Origin: Candidatus Thorarchaeota archaeon
GTDB taxonomy: Archaea > Asgardarchaeota > Thorarchaeia > Thorarchaeales > Thorarchaeaceae
Length of the DNA: 64,000 nucleotides
NCBI GenBank assembly: GCA_029855935.1
Contig: JAGSHN010000012.1
Location: 124,001 to 188,000, forward strand
Direction of reading: 5' to 3'
The notes below the pieces were generated by a model. It made no database searches. It saw only the letters and a list, made by a program, of their open reading frames with translations, and was not told the DNA's origin. Both the position numbers and the translations under genes were made by a program. This document shows positions 40,669 to 53,223 of this stretch, in pieces (the first letter of the stretch is position 1; each line of letters starts with the position of its first letter).

Positions 40669-40729
40669 GAGCCGCTACGTAGTCGGTGACTGGTCAGCAG
40701 GTGTTGGCAGTAGCGTAGAGGTTTTGAAC

Positions 40730-41509
40730 ATGAGTGATGCTTTCCAGTCCGAAGTGTATGCCTCCATTGCCACACTGGACCAGCTCAAGCGTCTCTACGA
40801 CCTCGGCGATATCGATGTCCGCTTCTTCGAGCGTGAGTCGCGAGCATTGATCAACGAGGTTCAGCGTGGTCTCGAACAGATGAAGCGTCTTGGGCTGGAT
40901 GTGCAGGCCTTTCTGACAGACTGGAGCATACACCAGCGTTTTCCGGAGGCTGCGAATCTACTCGGACTGGTCCCTGCGCAGCCGGCAGGCCCGACGTGGA
41001 CGGCGGGCCAGTGGGCATCGAAAGAGGAGTTCTATGACTACCTAGGTCTGCTTGTTCTTGATGTGGCGACCAAACATTCCTCAAAGGGTCTGATCGGTCT
41101 GGCTGAGATGATAGTCGAGGTGCTCCGCAGCCTGCCTAATCCCCAGGTGGCCAAGTTCACTGACGTCATCGAGGCCGTCAACCGCGTTTCGGGGGCTGGA
41201 CTGATTCCCGGTATCCGTACGCTGAAGGGTGGTGTCAAGGTTGTCGAGCTCCGCCCCCTTGAGCTGAGACGTGATCAGGCCGATGTCATCAATCTCGCGG
41301 CGGGCAAGGGCTACGTTTCTCTTGAAGAGGTGATGATGAACCTCGGTTGGTCCGAGGATCACGCACGACGCGTCCTGGCCAGTCTTGTAGAAGCCGGGAT
41401 AGCGGTCGTGAGCCTGAAGTATAGCACAGGTGGCAGATACTATTTCCCCGGGCTCCGTCCGATGGAACAGGATGGTGGCCCGGACGGCAGTCCTACAGTC
41501 TCAGAGTGA
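40730..41509 (+). CDS. Vps28-like/Vps22 (EAP30) fusion protein, ESCRT-I/II
   Basis: A 259-residue protein joining two ESCRT parts. Residues about 8-75 follow the Vps28 N-terminal domain pattern: VYASIATLDQLKRLYDLGDID, then a helix, then DVQAFLTDWSI and a terminal EAANLL. Residues about 95-250 follow Vps22/EAP30: FYDYLGLLVLDVATKH, KGLIGLAEMIVEVL, FTDVIEAVNRVSGAGLIPG, then a second winged helix (VINLAAGKGYVSLEEVMMNLGW, RRVLASLVEAGIAVV, GRYYFPGL). In eukaryotes Vps28 bridges ESCRT-I to ESCRT-II; here the link would be covalent. ATG 40730 has AGAGGT 7 bases upstream. It overlaps convergent vps25 by 17 bp. Confidence 0.82.
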   Translation: MSDAFQSEVYASIATLDQLKRLYDLGDIDVRFFERESRALINEVQRGLEQMKRLGLDVQAFLTDWSIHQRFPEAANLLGLVPAQPAGPTWTAGQWASKEEFYDYLGLLVLDVATKHSSKGLIGLAEMIVEVLRSLPNPQVAKFTDVIEAVNRVSGAGLIPGIRTLKGGVKVVELRPLELRRDQADVINLAAGKGYVSLEEVMMNLGWSEDHARRVLASLVEAGIAVVSLKYSTGGRYYFPGLRPMEQDGGPDGSPTVSE

Positions 41510-42179
41510 TGGCATGGCGTTTCTTGTCAAGCCACTCGGCCAGTCCGTCCTCCACCAGGATTTGGAGAGCCCTGTGCAGCTCCTCCTCGGGCAGAGATGA
41601 GAAGGTTTCCTCTGGACACTGAATGACAAGGGTCTTGACATCAATCTGCCGTTCCCCTCGCCTCAGTGCCCATGCGTAGATGACCTCGGCCCACTCCTGC
41701 ACGGAGCGCCAGTATACCCTCAGCCTCCTCTTCTCCTCGTCCATCCACTCTGCGACTCCCTGCCCAACCAACCAGTCCCCAATCAGTCTGAATGCCTCAA
41801 TCTTTCCGTGAATCTCGCCGAACTCTCTCTCTATGATGAAATCGCCAAGCGAAACAACATGGGCACCCTGATGCCTCGCCCAGTCGAGCAGATACTCTCC
41901 CCACTCTGCTGTCCATCTTTCCCTTGCCGCGTCATTCTCTGGAACTGTATACATCCACACGGCGGCGCGCGAGCCACCCCATGGAGGCGGTGGTCCTCTC
42001 TCCCTCTGGGCCACGGTGACTGCCTGCGTCCGCACTCTCGCTGAATCCCTCGTCCTGTCGTGGCGTATCGCACCGGAGATTGGGAGCGGCTGACCTCTCG
42101 CTGTTTCCGTAGCTGGTACAGTGTCCCGCTGTTCCCCGGTTCGTTTCTCCCGCTGTTTCCGTTGTTCTCTCACAGCCAC
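41493..42179 (-). CDS. vps25: Vps25-like ESCRT-II subunit with long N-terminal extension
   Basis: The protein has 228 residues. The C-terminal 150 follow Vps25: two winged helices. Key segments are AEWGEYLLDWARHQGA, GVAEWMDEEKRRLRVYWR, VQEWAEVIYAWALRRG and LHRALQILVEDGLAEWLD; the WR...EWAxxIYxW block is the most telling. Residues 1-70 are basic, Gln/Arg/Thr-rich and probably disordered, ending in a PPPPWGG stretch that recalls the aromatic-proline start of eukaryotic Vps25. In ESCRT-II it binds Vps22 and recruits ESCRT-III. It starts at GTG 2 bases after the vps4 stop, so the genes form one transcript. Confidence 0.85.
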   Translation of the reverse strand: MAVREQRKQREKRTGEQRDTVPATETARGQPLPISGAIRHDRTRDSARVRTQAVTVAQRERGPPPPWGGSRAAVWMYTVPENDAARERWTAEWGEYLLDWARHQGAHVVSLGDFIIEREFGEIHGKIEAFRLIGDWLVGQGVAEWMDEEKRRLRVYWRSVQEWAEVIYAWALRRGERQIDVKTLVIQCPEETFSSLPEEELHRALQILVEDGLAEWLDKKRHAITLRL

Positions 42180-42181
42180 GG

Positions 42182-43381
42182 CTACGGTGCCTCCGCCCAG
42201 CTGACGTACCTGCTTATGTCATTGGCTCTGATGGCTGGCCTCGTCAGGTCGATGGCGTACAGAAAGTCGTCCATACTCACAGGACGCAATACGGGGGTCA
42301 GACCATCACTCGAGAGCTGTCCGGTTCGCTGAAGTTCTCTGATCGGCTCCATTGCAGCCTCCCTGCATATCACGCTGATGTCCCTCCCGCTGTAGCCCTC
42401 GGTCAGGTCGGCAAGATCGCGGAAGCTCACATCTGCAGCGACTTCGACATCACGCATATGGACCCTGAAGATCATCTCCCGGGCATTCAGGTCCGGTAGA
42501 GGCACCAGTATCCGCTTCTCGAATCTGGACAGCAAGGCAAAGTCGAGTTCCCAAGGTAGATTTGTGGCCGCTATCACTGTGACTCGTTCTTCCGGTCTGC
42601 TGTTCAGGCCCTGGAGCTCGGTGAGGAGTTGAGTCTTCAATCGACGTTCTCCTCCGACATCGTCTGAGGAGCGCAGGCTACCGATGGAGTCTATCTCGTC
42701 GACGAAGATGATGGACGGCTGTCTCTCCCGGGCCATTGCGAAGAGAAGGTGGACGAGCCGCTCTGACTCCCCCAACCATTTGCTCACAATATTGGCTGCG
42801 GATACGTTGAAGAAGGTGGCGTTGATCTCTGCGGCTACCGCCTTGGCAATCATGGTCTTTCCGCAACCAGATGGACCATAGAGCAGGATGCCCCTCCACG
42901 GCTGTCTGGCCCGTCCTCGAAATAGCCCCGGATACCTCATTGGGACAATGACTGCGTCGTTGATTGCCTGTTTCGCCATCTCAAGACCCGCCACATCTGT
43001 GAGCCGGACGTTCGGTCTCTCCGTCACCATGGTGTCCTCAAGGGCCTCCATGAGATTGCGAGTTTCTGCAGAATCGGTTGCGAGTTCAGACCGTGGTGAG
43101 GCTGGCGAGACTGGCATGTCCGACGAGCTGGTGGGCCGTGGTCTCCGGGCGCGATGTTCGACAGTCACTCCCGACAGCTGCTTGACTCGCTGTATGCACT
43201 CCTCTGCGCGCCTGTAGTAGTAGTCTCTGACAGAGGGAATGCTTGTAGACCTAGACAGCTGCACGAGGACCCTGCTGGCCTGCAGATATGCCTGACAGGC
43301 CTCTCTTGCGAGGTTCTTCTGGTCCAGCTGTATGGCACGGCCGAGCAGCTCTCTCAGACCGCGGTCTATTCTGTCTGACAT
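42182..43381 (-). CDS. vps4: Vps4-type AAA ATPase with MIT domain
   Basis: An AAA ATPase of 399 residues that disassembles ESCRT-III filaments. Residues 1-72 form an MIT three-helix domain (LLGRAIQLDQKNLAREACQA, YYYRRAEECIQRV). A flexible linker (75-105) is followed by the AAA core: Walker A GPSGCGKT (169-176), pore loop KWLGES (201-206), Walker B IIFVDEID (224-231), sensor 1 AATN (271-274), and arginines near LLSRFEKR (283-290). The C-terminal part ends with the Vps4-type YAIDLTRPAI segment. The MIT domain should bind the C-terminal MIM1-like motif of the ESCRT-III protein at 48001. A TATA box lies at 43412-43419; vps25 follows directly. Confidence 0.95.
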   Translation of the reverse strand: MSDRIDRGLRELLGRAIQLDQKNLAREACQAYLQASRVLVQLSRSTSIPSVRDYYYRRAEECIQRVKQLSGVTVEHRARRPRPTSSSDMPVSPASPRSELATDSAETRNLMEALEDTMVTERPNVRLTDVAGLEMAKQAINDAVIVPMRYPGLFRGRARQPWRGILLYGPSGCGKTMIAKAVAAEINATFFNVSAANIVSKWLGESERLVHLLFAMARERQPSIIFVDEIDSIGSLRSSDDVGGERRLKTQLLTELQGLNSRPEERVTVIAATNLPWELDFALLSRFEKRILVPLPDLNAREMIFRVHMRDVEVAADVSFRDLADLTEGYSGRDISVICREAAMEPIRELQRTGQLSSDGLTPVLRPVSMDDFLYAIDLTRPAIRANDISRYVSWAEAP

Positions 43382-43464: not shown

Positions 43465-44814
43465 TCAGCCGGACGTGATCTGTGCCTGCTCTACTACGAT
43501 GGAGGGTGTGATTGCCTCAGAGGTCCTCCTCACATCCCCTCCGACGAGGATCACTCGTCTGAGCAGGTCGAGCATGTTTATTCCGATGAGAGTACTCTTC
43601 ACAGGGTACCGAATCTCTCCATTCTCGAAATAGTATCCCTCCATCACAAGTGCGCTGAGGTCGCCTGTCGTCATATTCGGTCTGTCGCCCGTGTCGCGAC
43701 AGAGTATACCGCGACCCACCTCTTCAACCAGATCCATCAGCCCGCCTCTTCCCGGTTGGACTATGAGATTACTTGGAGCAATCCTTGGAGGGCTGGAGTA
43801 GGAGGATCGGCTTGCGTGAGCGGTGTTCTCAACTTGATCCTTCTGTGCAGTGTACGAGTTGTGCAGTAGACTCTTTAGTACTCCCTGCTCAAGTAGCATT
43901 ATTCTCCTCGACGGAACCCCCTCTCCGTCGAACGGTCTTGAGCTGACCTCTCCAGGGCTCAGCGCATCATCTACTATAGTCAGGTGTTCAGAGGCTATCT
44001 GCTGTCCGAGGGCATCGGCGACGTACGACCGGCCGAACTGAACCTCCTCAGCGTTGACCGCTCCACCGAACCCGCCGCCAAGTACCGAGCCGACAGCTAT
44101 CGGCCCGAATACCACCGGCATCTTGTCGTTCTCAATTCTTCTGCCTCCGAGGTTTGCGATGACCGCAGCGGCCGCCTCTCTACCGACCTTCTCAGGGTCG
44201 AACTCGCGCAATGCTCGCGCCAGCTCATATTCAGAGCTCGATGTCTGTTCATCCTCTGTCTTGATGGTCGGAGCCGAGTAGATGTATCCGGTAGTCCCCT
44301 CGTAGTATGCCTCGATGCCCAACGAATTCACGATGCCAGCGCCCCCACGCGAGGTCCGCATCTGTGCCTCAATTGCATACTTGTAGTCTGACAAGCTCTC
44401 TTTGGTCGCGTCGACCATCCTTGTGACAATGTCGGCGGCCTCTTCGGAGCTGAGGTTGGCCATCGCCCGGTCGTAGAGTCTCTCAACAACTGGATATCCA
44501 CCGCTCGCCGAGGGGAGCGATCCAAAATCGGGGTCGGGGACAGAGACATGTGCGAGCGAGATGGCTCTCTCGACAGCGGCCCTGACGTCCTCCTCTCGGA
44601 TGGTCGTGACGTATGCAAAGCCGATTCTACTATCAATGACACACCTTATTCCACAGCCACTGTCACACCTCTCTGCAGCGCTCTTGATTGAGTTGTTCTC
44701 CACCTCAATTGTGAACGAGCGAGTGCTCGCCACAAAGGCCTCGGCCTGCTCGGCGCCTTGTCTCTCAGCGTGTCTGACCGCTATCTCAGCGATACCAAGT
44801 ATCTCTTCCCGCAC
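43465..44814 (-). CDS. tldE: TldE/PmbA-type subunit of TldD/E protease
   Basis: A 449-residue non-catalytic partner of TldD. It shares the fold (SRIGFAYVTTIREEDVRAAVERAI; VVFGPIAVGSVLGGGFGGAVNAEEV) but lacks the HExxxH zinc motif. At the end, GDLSALVMEGYYFENGEI matches PmbA. TldD/TldE heterodimers thread and cleave unfolded peptides. The start is GTG 44814, directly 2 bases after the tldD stop and behind GGAGGGAT; the longer frame to 44901 lies inside tldD. The pair lies between vps4-vps25 and the steadiness-box gene. Confidence 0.92.
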   Translation of the reverse strand: MREEILGIAEIAVRHAERQGAEQAEAFVASTRSFTIEVENNSIKSAAERCDSGCGIRCVIDSRIGFAYVTTIREEDVRAAVERAISLAHVSVPDPDFGSLPSASGGYPVVERLYDRAMANLSSEEAADIVTRMVDATKESLSDYKYAIEAQMRTSRGGAGIVNSLGIEAYYEGTTGYIYSAPTIKTEDEQTSSSEYELARALREFDPEKVGREAAAAVIANLGGRRIENDKMPVVFGPIAVGSVLGGGFGGAVNAEEVQFGRSYVADALGQQIASEHLTIVDDALSPGEVSSRPFDGEGVPSRRIMLLEQGVLKSLLHNSYTAQKDQVENTAHASRSSYSSPPRIAPSNLIVQPGRGGLMDLVEEVGRGILCRDTGDRPNMTTGDLSALVMEGYYFENGEIRYPVKSTLIGINMLDLLRRVILVGGDVRRTSEAITPSIVVEQAQITSG

Positions 44815-44816
44815 CT

Positions 44817-46202
44817 CTACATCCCTCCGACAGGAACTTCTGTGGCCCGTGCGTGTGGTCCACCGCTCATGTCCGGCACCCATTGACCATTCTTTCCGCA
44901 AGTACCTGCGTCAAGCTCGAAGTCCCTGCCCACCGCGTCTATCTTGGAGAGAACCTCCAGTATGAGACCTGACAGCGAAACATCCCTGACCATCTGGCCA
45001 ATCTCTCCCTTCTTGATCACGTATCCGTATTGGGCTTGAAACATGAAATGTCCCATAGAGGGGTTCGTGTAGCCGTAGTTGAATCTGCACAGGAGAAGGC
45101 CATGTCTGGTGTCCTCAATCAGCTCATCAACATCCCAGTCACCCGGCTCCATGAACGTGTTGCTCATCCTCGGGATGGGTACGTGTGCATAGGACTCAGC
45201 TCTGGCTGCGCCATTCGACTCCATCCCCAGCCTAGATGCCGTTTCGAGAGAGTGGAGTATCTCTGTCAAGATGCCGTCTTTGACAAGGATTCGCTTTCTC
45301 GTCTTTGTCCCTTCCCAGTCATATGGGTAGGATCCGCGGGCACAGTCCAGCGTGGGATCATCACTTATGTTGAGCCACTCTGGTCCGACACTCTGTCCGA
45401 GCTTGTCCTCAAGGACTGTTGTGTGCGCAGGCCAGCCATCGGCCTCACAGGCGTGTCCAAACGCCTCATGCACCATTACGCCGTTGAGGACCGGATCCAT
45501 CACGACATCGTAGACGCCTCCCCTTACAGCCACCGACGAGAGCAGGTCGACGGCGGTTCTTGCGGCTCTCTCTCCAACCGTCTGAGCGTCCTCTTCCATC
45601 ATCATCTCGAACCCGCCCTTTACTCCGACAGACCTGTAGGCACGCTGCCGATTCGCCCCCTCTCTTGCCGTTATTGACGATATGATGCGCGGGAGGGAGT
45701 TCTCAATATACACAGAGGTCCCAAGAGAATTGGCCACATAGAGCTCGCTCCACAGCTCCCCGTATACAGTCCTCGCATTGGAGACACGCTCGTCAAACTC
45801 ACGTGCCTGCATGTCAATCTGTTTGACAAACTCCATCTTCTCCTCCATCGGGACATCAGGGAAGGGGCGCCTGACGGAGATGAACTCCTTCGCCCTGAAA
45901 GTGGGGCCGTCGATCTCAAATCGTTCGGCAACAAGTGGACGGACAGCGAGAGCCAGCTTGGTAGCAGACTCGCCAACCCCTCGCATTCCCTCGGGTGTGA
46001 GTTCCGTCGTCTGAGCAAAGGCCCACGCCCCGTCGATGAACGCCCTCACTCCTGCGCCTCTGAGATGGGCGGACATCGACCTCCGAGTCACGCCATTGAC
46101 CATCTCTATAACGGTAGAGTGAGTGTTCTCAATTCTCACGTCAGCGAACGATGCTCCTGCGTCGAGTGCAGACTCTACGGCAATCTGGGCAAGGTCTTCC
46201 AT
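44817..46202 (-). CDS. tldD: TldD metallopeptidase
   Basis: A zinc metallopeptidase of about 461 residues. The HExxxH motif is in MVHEAFGHACEADG (about 246-259), and a third ligand cysteine would lie near the C-terminus (GTCGKNGQ). DVRIENTHSTVIEMVNG opens the N-terminal part. With TldE it forms a cage that degrades flexible peptides, and in bacteria it matures some peptides. The start chosen is ATG 46202 with GTGAT upstream. The frame to 46286 would begin before the minus-strand TATA-like AATTATAAC near 46235. Confidence 0.93.
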   Translation of the reverse strand: MEDLAQIAVESALDAGASFADVRIENTHSTVIEMVNGVTRRSMSAHLRGAGVRAFIDGAWAFAQTTELTPEGMRGVGESATKLALAVRPLVAERFEIDGPTFRAKEFISVRRPFPDVPMEEKMEFVKQIDMQAREFDERVSNARTVYGELWSELYVANSLGTSVYIENSLPRIISSITAREGANRQRAYRSVGVKGGFEMMMEEDAQTVGERAARTAVDLLSSVAVRGGVYDVVMDPVLNGVMVHEAFGHACEADGWPAHTTVLEDKLGQSVGPEWLNISDDPTLDCARGSYPYDWEGTKTRKRILVKDGILTEILHSLETASRLGMESNGAARAESYAHVPIPRMSNTFMEPGDWDVDELIEDTRHGLLLCRFNYGYTNPSMGHFMFQAQYGYVIKKGEIGQMVRDVSLSGLILEVLSKIDAVGRDFELDAGTCGKNGQWVPDMSGGPHARATEVPVGGM

Positions 46203-46340
46203 CAGAATCACTAGCCGGTCGCATACACCGCTCGTTATAATTGCTTTGAAGAGTGAGTGGCGGTCGGTGTAACCTTGGTGATACACAGCTCTTTCTTATC
46301 CCATCACTGAGTCGAGACCAAGGCACACGGAGGCACACAG

Positions 46341-47909
46341 TTGAGTCAAGAATCCGCGCGCGACTCTTGCCAGGTCTGCAGAAGGTCTAACGGCGTCTAC
46401 TTCTGTGAGGACTGCGGTGCTGTTCTGTGTGCTGACTGTGTTGAAACGGTCACAAGCGACTTCTACTTCTGTGGCGACTGCCACTCCCAGATCCCGTCCT
46501 CGGAGACCGACAATCATCCGCAGAAGTGTCCCGAGTGTGGCTCCGAAGAGATTCGTACGGGGCGCCGGGAAGAGGAACGATGCCCCCGGTGTCACTCGAC
46601 AAGGCTTGTGCTCGTGTCGGAAAAGCGACGTACTCTCGCTCAGGACCTGCGTCAGGCAATCAATGTTCTCCAGTACGGACACTCAAGATTTCACGAGCTC
46701 TCTAGACGTCTTACTCGGATTGTCGAGACTCTGGTGTCACTACGGATGGCAAAGTTCGTCCACTACCACTGGCTTGAGCGCCACTTGGAGGAATTGCAGG
46801 AGGAGGTCCCTGCACTCAGGAACCGAATAGTCAACCGGGCCGAGATGGTGGCGCGCCAGATGGCTGCGGAAACATCAGGGATAATGCACGACCCTCTATG
46901 GACGGCTGACCAGTTCCCGTTCATATCAGGTGTGGTGAACAGGCTGCGCGAGCTTGGACGGGAGTACAAGGAGCGAGTCGATGAGACCCTCGCTGGTGCA
47001 TTCCGTCGTCTGGAGGAGATCAGCAAGACGATTGAGGGTCTCGAGTATTTCCGACGAGCCTTTGTGGCCTTTTCTAGCCTCGTCCCCCTTGAGGTCAATG
47101 AGCTGCCCGTCTGTGCACTGCCGGATATCCGCCTCACGGGGTCCGACTTTCTCAAGCACGACAAAGCCGCAGGAACGCTCTATCTGACCGACCGGCGAAT
47201 GGTCTTCATTGCCACCACTGGGACTATTCGAAAGAGGGAGTCCGTGGTCTTTGACTTTCCTCTGCCGTATCTGTCGGGGATTGAGGAGGACGGCAGACGG
47301 AAGAAGCGTCTTGTTCTGAGGATGCAACAAGGCGACATCAGGATAGTCTGTCCTGAGGGAACACGACGTGTGATGAGCGACTACATGGAGATTGCTCGCA
47401 GCTTTGCCAAGTATGCACAGACCAATCTTCAGCGTACGAGGCAGCTGCAGCGGTTCAGTTGTGCGCCTGATGAGGTGAGGATCCGTATATTGGATCTGAT
47501 TGATGACCTGCTCTCTCGAGAACGACGCAGAGCGATTGCCATGAGCGGTACGGGGGCGTACACTCGCTCTCCTCCTCCGGTCCACAGCTGGGGCTATCCG
47601 GAGACCTCGAATAGTCCTAGGGCCACATTCTCGGGGTCGCCATTCAGTCCGCAGGCCACAAGTCCAGATAGTCGCTACAGCTTGGACGGCTCGTATGTGA
47701 GAACGGCTGCGACTTCGCCCCCGCGCGGTGTCTACTCGCAACACTATGGCGACGGGGACATGACTGCACTACTCAATCACGAGATCCAAGAGACAATACG
47801 TGCACTCAGACGGGGTCGACTTCCTCCTGACGAGTTTGTTCGGCGTTATCGTGACCTGATGCGGAGTTCATTTGAGATGGAGCGACGCTTCTACGAAAGG
47901 GTTCGGTAG
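46341..47909 (+). CDS. zinc finger-coiled coil-GRAM/PH-steadiness box protein (Vps23-like ESCRT-I candidate)
   Basis: The protein has 522 residues. Residues 10-47 form a B-box-like finger with four CxxC pairs (C10/C13, C22/C25, C30/C33, C44/C47). Residues 63-84 form a zinc ribbon (CPEC...CPRC). Residues 95-250 are helical and coiled-coil-like. Residues 265-370 resemble a GRAM/PH domain (AGTLYLTDRRMVFIATTGT; KRLVLRM). Residues 395-465 are a Pro/Ser/Tyr-rich linker. The last 45 residues (IRALRRGRLPPDEFVRRYRDL, then SSFEMERRFYE) resemble the steadiness box of Tsg101/Vps23. It has no UEV domain. TTG is the start, with GGAGG 7 bases upstream. It is next to the ESCRT-III gene, convergent. A membrane-binding ESCRT-I subunit is inferred. 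Confidence 0.72.
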   Translation: MSQESARDSCQVCRRSNGVYFCEDCGAVLCADCVETVTSDFYFCGDCHSQIPSSETDNHPQKCPECGSEEIRTGRREEERCPRCHSTRLVLVSEKRRTLAQDLRQAINVLQYGHSRFHELSRRLTRIVETLVSLRMAKFVHYHWLERHLEELQEEVPALRNRIVNRAEMVARQMAAETSGIMHDPLWTADQFPFISGVVNRLRELGREYKERVDETLAGAFRRLEEISKTIEGLEYFRRAFVAFSSLVPLEVNELPVCALPDIRLTGSDFLKHDKAAGTLYLTDRRMVFIATTGTIRKRESVVFDFPLPYLSGIEEDGRRKKRLVLRMQQGDIRIVCPEGTRRVMSDYMEIARSFAKYAQTNLQRTRQLQRFSCAPDEVRIRILDLIDDLLSRERRRAIAMSGTGAYTRSPPPVHSWGYPETSNSPRATFSGSPFSPQATSPDSRYSLDGSYVRTAATSPPRGVYSQHYGDGDMTALLNHEIQETIRALRRGRLPPDEFVRRYRDLMRSSFEMERRFYERVR

Positions 47910-47958
47910 GCTCCGCCAGAACCCCTGCGTGAAACTATGAGGCGTGCACGGACTGTGG

Positions 47959-47988
47959 GACATTGAGCGTGAGGACATTGAGCGTGAG
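47959..47988. repeat. 15-bp unit repeated twice in tandem
   Basis: GACATTGAGCGTGAG occurs twice in direct succession in the gap between the convergent steadiness-box and ESCRT-III genes. No function is evident. Confidence 0.6.
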
Positions 47989-48000
47989 TCTGAGCGGAGT

Positions 48001-48633
48001 CTAGAGGCCAAGCCTCCTCTCAAGCGCCTGAATCTCTTCTGCCAGTCTGTCGGGTGGTGCCTTGGTGGATGGAGTGGTCCCCCTACGGCCGCCACTCTCC
48101 ACAACCTCGGAATCTATCTCCGCCATCACGTCTGCCAGCTCCTCAGGAGCAATTCTGCCATCCGTGGCTCCGTGGAGGGTCTCCTCGAAGATGCCGTTCT
48201 CAATCTCGAACTGCTCGAGTCTTCGTGCCACCTCGTCGAGATTCTGAATGACCCTCTTGGCACTGATCTCTTCTCCGAGGATACCAAAGATTGCTGCCAC
48301 CCTCTCCATGCCTATGTTGACTCTTGCTGTTATCCTCGCTCGCTTGATGTAGGACGCAATACGTAGAAGAGAGAACCGGACACGCTCGATCTTGAGAATA
48401 TCACGATGTGTCCGCAGGACCTCCCCGGCATAGAGTATGCAGGCCTCGTTCTGCCCGTTTCTGCGAGCTGTCACTGCCCGCCTCTTGGCATCGGCAGCCA
48501 GTTTCTCCAGATGGTTGCGCTCACGTTCGAGCTCTCTGGCCATCACCTGAAGACCGCTGACAATCTCCGTGACATCTGGCTTTTTTCTGCCCCATATGGC
48601 GGCCCGCTTCAACAGACGCAATAGTTTCACCAC
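48001..48633 (-). CDS. ESCRT-III subunit (Vps2/24/46-like) with C-terminal MIM1-like motif
   Basis: A 210-residue, almost wholly helical protein. A basic N-terminus (MVKLLRLLKRAAIWGRKK) suits membrane contact. A long helical hairpin follows (about 25-100: ELERERNHLEKLAADAKRRAV, then a helix ending in ILRTHRDILK-like residues), then shorter helices with MERVAAIFGILGEEISAKRV and an acidic C-terminal half. The extreme C-terminus has ALERRLGL, which fits the LxxRL core of MIM1 motifs that bind Vps4 MIT domains. It would polymerise on membranes in division or scission. A TATA box lies at 48673-48680. Only one ESCRT-III paralogue is in the window; most Asgard genomes carry a second elsewhere. Confidence 0.85.
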   Translation of the reverse strand: MVKLLRLLKRAAIWGRKKPDVTEIVSGLQVMARELERERNHLEKLAADAKRRAVTARRNGQNEACILYAGEVLRTHRDILKIERVRFSLLRIASYIKRARITARVNIGMERVAAIFGILGEEISAKRVIQNLDEVARRLEQFEIENGIFEETLHGATDGRIAPEELADVMAEIDSEVVESGGRRGTTPSTKAPPDRLAEEIQALERRLGL

Positions 48634-52383: not shown

Positions 52384-53223
52384 TTGTCGTTGAGGCGGTC
52401 CATTCTTGGCATATGGGTGATTGAGCGGCACACCGGCCGTAATCTCGTCGCCCGTGCCTACGGGGGCATAGATGTGGATATGGATCTGATAGCTCCCTTT
52501 CTGTCAGCGACGCACACCTTCATCGACAAGGCATCGAACGAGTCTCTTCAGACAATCGACACGGTGAATTCACGATACGTGTGGGTCAGAAATGATCATC
52601 TACTGCTCGTGATGATTGTGAGCAAGGCGGCCCGGATTGGTCATATGCGTTTCCTGCTGAAGTACGCACTGAAGGAGTTCGTTGACACGATGATACCAAA
52701 GGGCCGTGACCTGGGAGAGTTCCTGAGCGAGTGGAAGGGCAATCCTGAGACCTTTGCCTCGTTCGGGGCATTCCTTGATGAGCTTGTCGAGCAGTATGAG
52801 ATGACTGATGAGAGTCTTGTTGCTGGAAAGTCTATGGACTCCTTGGAGGTGTACAATCACCTCTTCCGCGAGCTGATGCGGATCGATGTGGACCGCGTGA
52901 CGAAGAGGAAGATAGTCCGGGACATCAAGAGGCGCATGGCCTCTCTCATTGAGACATATCCGTTCTTGGAGGACGTGCCTGTCGATGAGGCTGGCGTCGA
53001 GGTGCTCGAGATTGACGTGCTCAACAACCAGATACCATATCGGGCCCTCCGTGCTGCACTTGAGGACCTGTTCCAAGTGGTTGCCGAGGCAGTCAGGTCG
53101 AATGTCGATTCAGGGTCCTACAGAGACTGCGTCTTCAGCCACGTGATGCGATACGTCAAGGAAGATCTGAAGCGTCTCCAGACATACGCCATTCTCGATG
53201 ATGTGGTCCGCTATCTCTTCTAG
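52384..53223 (+). CDS. longin/roadblock-like domain protein
   Basis: The protein has 279 residues. Residues 1-105 follow the longin fold order: strand ILGIWVIERHTGRNLVARAYGG, a helix (LIAPFLSATHTFIDK), a strand pair (SRYVWVRNDHLLLVMIVSKAA) and a long helix (MRFLLKYALKEFVDT). Longin domains occur in SNAREs, adaptor subunits and GTPase regulators; Asgard genomes are rich in them. The C-terminal part (about 145-279) is helical and not recognised. No membrane anchor is visible. The start is TTG 52384 or TTG 52390, after GAGGTGA. Convergent with the Trm11-like gene. Confidence 0.7.
   Translation: MSLRRSILGIWVIERHTGRNLVARAYGGIDVDMDLIAPFLSATHTFIDKASNESLQTIDTVNSRYVWVRNDHLLLVMIVSKAARIGHMRFLLKYALKEFVDTMIPKGRDLGEFLSEWKGNPETFASFGAFLDELVEQYEMTDESLVAGKSMDSLEVYNHLFRELMRIDVDRVTKRKIVRDIKRRMASLIETYPFLEDVPVDEAGVEVLEIDVLNNQIPYRALRAALEDLFQVVAEAVRSNVDSGSYRDCVFSHVMRYVKEDLKRLQTYAILDDVVRYLF

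Follow-up and report, generated by a model that had tools for sequence, protein, structure and literature searches.

The 64,000-nucleotide stretch of Candidatus Thorarchaeota DNA analysed here (the window) contains, among ESCRT genes, a gene for a protein with cysteine-rich fingers at one end and a helical hairpin at the other, which raises the question of whether and how this protein serves the ESCRT pathway. The frame is open at exactly 46341-47909 on the + strand, runs from a TTG start to a terminal stop codon and encodes 522 aa; the gene call is based on the open frame and on homologues. A Shine-Dalgarno-like GGAGG, read from the sequence, lies 7 nt upstream of the TTG (46329..46333, + strand), and a full-length frame was not found on the opposite strand. 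From the N- to the C-terminus, the product, referred to here as Znr-CC-PH-SB, has 12 conserved cysteines followed by a middle region of helices, a PH/GRAM block, a linker predicted to be disordered and, at the end, a hairpin. Since matches in other genomes reach E 2e-167 and homologues are present in 187 of 227 Asgard genomes, this architecture is not a product of chance; its close relatives in GTDB contigs all belong to Candidatus Thorarchaeota. When module profiles built solely from distant lineages were run against the 906 ORFs of the window, the PH (E 1e-32) and zinc (E 4e-22) profiles selected this very frame, and for the steadiness box (SB) profile it was one of the top two ORFs (E 0.008), together with a Vps22-like ORF (E 0.002). 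A Foldseek search with the full AlphaFold model returned no match at E <0.001.

An ESCRT setting had been proposed for this gene from the sequence alone, and the neighbouring genes bear this out, repeatedly across loci. The window carries genes for a Vps22-like (EAP30) protein (40724..41509, + strand), a Vps25-like ESCRT-II subunit (41493..42179, - strand; PF05871, E 2.3e-14), a Vps4-like AAA ATPase with an MIT domain (42182..43381, - strand; Pfam match) and a Snf7-family ESCRT-III subunit (48001..48633, - strand; PF03357, E 6e-9). Out of 13 Thorarchaeal loci, one (L003) ends within the Znr-CC-PH-SB gene and a Snf7-type gene adjoins it in the other 12; Vps4, Vps25 and Vps22 are also present in 11 of these 12, the remaining locus (L007) stopping at Snf7. 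In the distant lineages L051, L053 and L063, the gene is again linked to Snf7, Vps4 and Vps25. L063 harbours a compact ESCRT cluster (L063:1515-8918) with genes for Znr-CC-PH-SB, UEV-Vps23, Vps25, Vps4, two ESCRT-III-like proteins, Vps28 and Vps22. When compared to L001 and the other Thorarchaeal loci that carry these genes, the PmbA-TldD-Znr-CC-PH-SB-Snf7 segment of the window (43465-48633) is inverted as a block, and owing to this inversion of four genes the Snf7 gene of the window no longer lies beside Vps4. Further downstream, 52384-53223 encodes a conserved 279-aa protein that is found near a TFB gene in many Thorarchaeal loci and has a weak longin-domain match in Pfam (E 0.013).

The sequence-only reading had described four CxxC pairs at the N-terminus followed by a second CxxC...CxxC ribbon, B-box-like fingers and a helical middle. 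All of these are present, with the B-box likeness confirmed for the first finger. The first zinc module (residues 10-47; 46368..46481, + strand) contains C10, C13, C22, C25, C30, C33, C44 and C47 in a B-box/cross-brace-like arrangement for which two zinc sites are expected. The zinc ribbon that follows (residues 63-84; 46527..46592, + strand), recognised by its conserved cysteines and by DZR and zinc-ribbon models, would provide a third site through C63, C66, C81 and C84. These 12 cysteines in six CxxC pairs are conserved in 31 Asgard sequences from many lineages, nine of them without exception, and this conservation fits three predicted zinc sites, which would then be occupied. zf-B_box was the commonest Pfam model for the first module (27 of 31 members) and also the best match of the isolated segment of the window protein (E 8.6e-6). 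FYVE was considered for this finger and rejected, as just five of the 31 members matched it. The helical middle, or CC region (residues 92-245; 46614..47075, + strand), is assigned from AlphaFold secondary structure, with helices at 92-108, 111-136, 143-178 and 189-245 (pLDDT 59-94 by 10-residue block); structural comparison of this region yielded common helical bundles as sole matches. A Ser/Pro-rich linker (residues 402-469; 47544..47747, + strand; pLDDT about 30-39) lies within a longer region of predicted disorder (395-469) in the AlphaFold model.

Matches of the N-terminus to B-box and several zinc-ribbon models, and of the zinc profile to PHD and RING chains, could point to a regulatory protein that has nothing to do with membranes, for instance a B-box/TRIM-like or transcription-related zinc protein that lies beside ESCRT genes by chance. 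We regard this as very improbable: the PH and SB modules are retained phylum-wide, the ESCRT linkage is repeated, and none of the RING models reached the cut-off against the window protein, which has a B-box-like finger only and not the combination of RING, B-box and coiled coil that defines TRIM proteins.

Residues of about 250-358 (47088..47414, + strand) were assigned to a PH/GRAM-type domain on the basis of Pfam matches of family members and structural alignment. The AlphaFold model shows a strand-rich block with a helix at its end, at low confidence (pLDDT 40-67 in the full model and 39 when folded alone). The PH segment of the window protein by itself matched no Pfam family. Among 35 members, bPH_3 was matched by 30 (best 3e-7), GRAM by 19 and the Vps36 GLUE domain (PF11605) by 15 (best 0.0015), and a PH profile searched against the PDB matched two bacterial PH domains (E 0.023 and 0.16) and Vps36 (2cay, E 0.65), with no others. 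Structurally, the low-confidence model aligned to the Lam6 PH-like domain (Z 8.1, rmsd 2.1), the MTMR2 GRAM domain (Z 7.4) and the EAP45 GLUE domain (2hth, Z 6.6), with PH-fold matches overall spanning Z 6.4-8.1. The GRAM/PH block proposed from the sequence alone thus stands as a predicted PH/GRAM domain, which may bind lipids; we do not assign it to the GLUE type specifically.

The GLUE similarity is of interest because the protein might be a functional counterpart of Vps36, its GLUE-like PH domain and zinc fingers serving ESCRT-II and its SB merely acting as a tether. Support for this possibility comes from the 15 members that match GLUE, from Vps36 being third in the PDB search and from the alignment to EAP45, together with the report that full-length Vps36 was not found in Asgards (Hatano et al. 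2022, PMC9192718) and the Vps22-like nature of the partner proposed below. However, bPH_3 and GRAM models outperformed GLUE, other PH folds scored as high as or higher than GLUE in structural comparison, the zinc fingers are N-terminal and not inserted in the PH domain, and a Pfam search found no EAP30 winged-helix region in the protein. We therefore give the Vps36 counterpart only a small chance.

The C-terminal hairpin (residues 471-521 in the AlphaFold model) contains the 'LRRG ... DEF ... RDL' pattern at 489-507, and the sequence-only reading had likened it to the steadiness box of Tsg101/Vps23. To characterise the SB (residues 470-522; 47748..47906, + strand), we used PDB profile matches, Pfam Vps23_core and AlphaFold alignment. 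A profile of 36 Asgard hairpin sequences (A2) matched yeast Vps23/Stp22 (2f66_A, 4.3e-6; 2p22_A, 5.8e-6; 2caz_A, 3.3e-5) and human TSG101 (6vme_B, 5.6e-5) in the PDB and covered 43 of 49 positions of Vps23. The same search also matched repetitive phycobilisome linker proteins over short stretches, and no Vps28 or Vps37 chain was among its matches. As a control, the A2 sequences were reversed, which gave two unrelated matches and no ESCRT chain. Vps23_core was matched by 29 of the 36 A2 members (best 2.7e-7); the SB of the window protein on its own falls below the Pfam cut-off, and a Vps23_core search of its own genome gave no match, with the controls equally silent, so that this search was left out of the evidence. 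The structural match anticipated for the last ~50 residues was also found, the AlphaFold model of residues 466-522 aligning to 2caz_A over 57 of 58 residues (Z 7.2, rmsd 2.6, 26% identity), although helical-bundle Z scores below about 13 may mean merely a common arrangement, and so the claim is carried by the sequence evidence. On this evidence, the predicted hairpin is a Vps23-type SB.

The C-terminus could nevertheless be a generic SHOCT-like helical hairpin on a zinc/PH membrane adaptor that acts beside ESCRT and is not an ESCRT-I subunit. In this regard, G-x-I-x-x-E-E-F hairpins recur, and the SB profile matched an L071 membrane protein (21.5 bits) and, at 21 bits, a small Thorarchaeal protein encoded away from the ESCRT genes. 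In hhalign, the probability against the SB profile was 96.5 for the latter (family A9) and 91.7 for the Vps28-type SB described below. A9 searched against the PDB, however, found no Vps23, Vps28 or Vps37 chain, and Vps23_core is absent from its listed Pfam families, whereas A2 recovered both Vps23 chains and Vps23_core. SHOCT was matched by just three of the 36 A2 members, most Vps23 positions are covered by A2, and ESCRT gene linkage is recurrent across lineages, which makes a generic hairpin an unlikely explanation. The A9 protein itself is a SHOCT-like hairpin protein of about 105-120 aa (L075:5411-5698; G000:C8:72410-72697) that has no ESCRT genes nearby and is conserved in 43 of the 47 genomes of the window's family. 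The possibility that this hairpin protein, 116 aa long on contig C8, provides a Vps37-like third SB was not supported, given that it found no ESCRT chain in the PDB and matched SHOCT and coiled-coil families in Pfam.

In the ESCRT-I headpiece, Vps23 associates with Vps28 and with Vps37 or a second Vps23; the partner proposed here is the Vps22-like protein encoded at 40724..41509. Its N-terminus (about residues 8-72) carries a Vps28-type SB, a profile of which (A6) matched the Vps28 chains 2f6m_B, 2f66_B, 2p22_B and 2caz_B in the PDB (E 0.005-0.008), with Pfam VPS28 matched by eight of its 12 members. Thus, with A2 finding Vps23 chains and A6 finding Vps28 chains, two proteins of the window each correspond to a distinct subunit of a single solved headpiece. 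The Vps28-like domain predicted earlier for the product of 40730-41509 holds in so far as there is a Vps28-type SB at its N-terminus, but the protein is mainly Vps22 (EAP30). Full-length Vps28 (PF03997, 1.3e-12 and 2.2e-16) and full-length EAP30 are encoded by separate neighbouring genes in L053 and L063, which belong to other lineages, while in Thorarchaeia the hairpin sits on Vps22. The simplest reading of these sequences would therefore be that the Vps28 hairpin was fused to Vps22 in Thorarchaeia and that the Vps28 C-terminal domain is gone.

We surveyed 227 Asgard genomes, 47 of which represent the window's own family (Thorarchaeia). Znr-CC-PH-SB was found in 46 of these 47. A UEV domain was detected by Pfam PF05743 in 53 of 227 genomes and by the UEV-Vps23 query from L063 in 116 of 227 (this query also catches E2-size proteins elsewhere), but both searches gave 0/47 in the window's family, and Vps28-C was found in 91 of 227 and again in 0/47, absences that depend on how sensitive the profiles are and on the assemblies, which are not equally complete. 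The Vps28-N SB was present in 163 of 227 genomes, including 44 of the 47, where it lies inside Vps22-size frames. No UEV match was obtained in the window protein, in its own genome or in its 47-genome family. A PF00179 E2 search was silent, as were all its controls, so that it is no evidence of absence. Two further matches were discarded: that of PF03997 at C21:327533 (L044) fell in a long coiled-coil protein, which we did not take as Vps28, and that of PF00240 ubiquitin at C29 had an E of 0.24. The sequence-only reading had a GRAM/PH domain 'instead of UEV'. This does not apply phylum-wide: Znr-CC-PH-SB and PF05743 matches occur together in 38 genomes, and L063 has both in one cluster, so Znr-CC-PH-SB does not replace UEV-Vps23 across Asgards. 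In the window's family, UEV-Vps23 and Vps28-C are undetected and a Vps28-type SB forms the N-terminus of a Vps22-like protein, so that Znr-CC-PH-SB is probably the sole Vps23-type SB there and would pair with the Vps28-SB/Vps22 fusion to give an adaptor that joins ESCRT-I and ESCRT-II and works independently of ubiquitin. A different arrangement is seen in genomes of family f6 (G007-G029; e.g. G012:C129), where single open frames of about 470-490 aa contain matches to UEV, Vps28-N and Vps28-C and resemble the UEV-Vps23-Vps28 fusion reported from Heimdallarchaeota.

Alongside the computed architecture, the two SB assignments, the gene linkage and the lineage distribution, we favour as reasonably probable a role of the protein as an ESCRT-I-type scaffold and membrane adaptor. 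Its C-terminal SB would pack on the N-terminal Vps28-type SB of the 40724-41509 protein, so that the ESCRT-I headpiece would be built into ESCRT-II by a covalent link. Held on the helical arm, the PH/GRAM domain would bind the membrane at its inner face, and cargo or a partner protein would be bound by the zinc module. Vps22 would engage Vps25, leading to recruitment of Snf7-type ESCRT-III, which Vps4 would recycle. As the UEV protein was undetected in this lineage, the Thorarchaeal pathway would not read ubiquitin. A more far-reaching proposal, to which we give somewhat less than an even chance, is that in Thorarchaeia ESCRT-I and ESCRT-II have become a single adaptor that does not depend on ubiquitin. 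In this scenario, UEV-Vps23 and Vps28-C would have been lost, the Vps28 hairpin fused onto Vps22 and the PH/zinc protein left as sole Vps23-type subunit, with a lipid or a zinc-finger ligand replacing ubiquitin as the recruiting signal. These considerations suggest a way in which a close relative of the eukaryotic ESCRT pathway may run without ubiquitin. The window's lineage retains ESCRT-II, ESCRT-III and Vps4 and has apparently lost the ubiquitin-reading half of ESCRT-I, making the PH/zinc protein a candidate recruiter. A small system of two proteins, Znr-CC-PH-SB and the Vps28-SB/Vps22 fusion, may reveal what ESCRT-I does besides reading ubiquitin, and bears on whether PH domains that recognise lipids were already associated with ESCRT-I before eukaryotic Vps36.

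With respect to known systems, the architecture is not new, as an Asgard family termed 'Znr_CC_PH_SB' or Znr_PH_CC_SB (cog.011556) and predicted to belong to ESCRT-I has already been published (Makarova et al. 2024, mBio, PMC10936438). The window protein shares with it three N-terminal zinc modules (from the cysteine pattern), a helical/CC region, a PH domain (low-confidence model) and an SB, arranged as in the label of the published figure, as well as the ESCRT neighbourhood, the Asgard distribution and the predicted ESCRT-I role; we see no architectural difference, and its assignment by architecture as a Thorarchaeal member of this family is well supported. An SB-Vps22 fusion in Asgards was described in the same paper (cog.002769) and the neighbour at 40724-41509 fits that description, the difference being that we assign the fused SB to the Vps28 type. 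Hatano et al. (2022) reported that Thorarchaeota are seemingly without ubiquitin; in Loki- and Thorarchaeota they described a freestanding steadiness-box protein, the Thorarchaeal one examined by two-hybrid, as a possible interactor of Vps28 (PMC9192718). What our analysis adds are the counts over 227 genomes, the Thorarchaeal co-distribution without UEV-Vps23 and Vps28-C, and the two-protein hypothesis. Eukaryotic and Asgard Vps23/TSG101 have the Vps23-type SB in common with the window protein, which in contrast lacks a UEV domain, carries zinc fingers and a PH domain, and is accompanied in other Asgards by true UEV-Vps23. Eukaryotic Vps36, with its GLUE domain and, in yeast, NZF fingers, is likewise an ESCRT adaptor with a PH fold and zinc modules and shows weak GLUE similarity to the window protein, whereas the latter has no EAP30 winged helices, has its fingers at the N-terminus and not inserted, and carries an SB.
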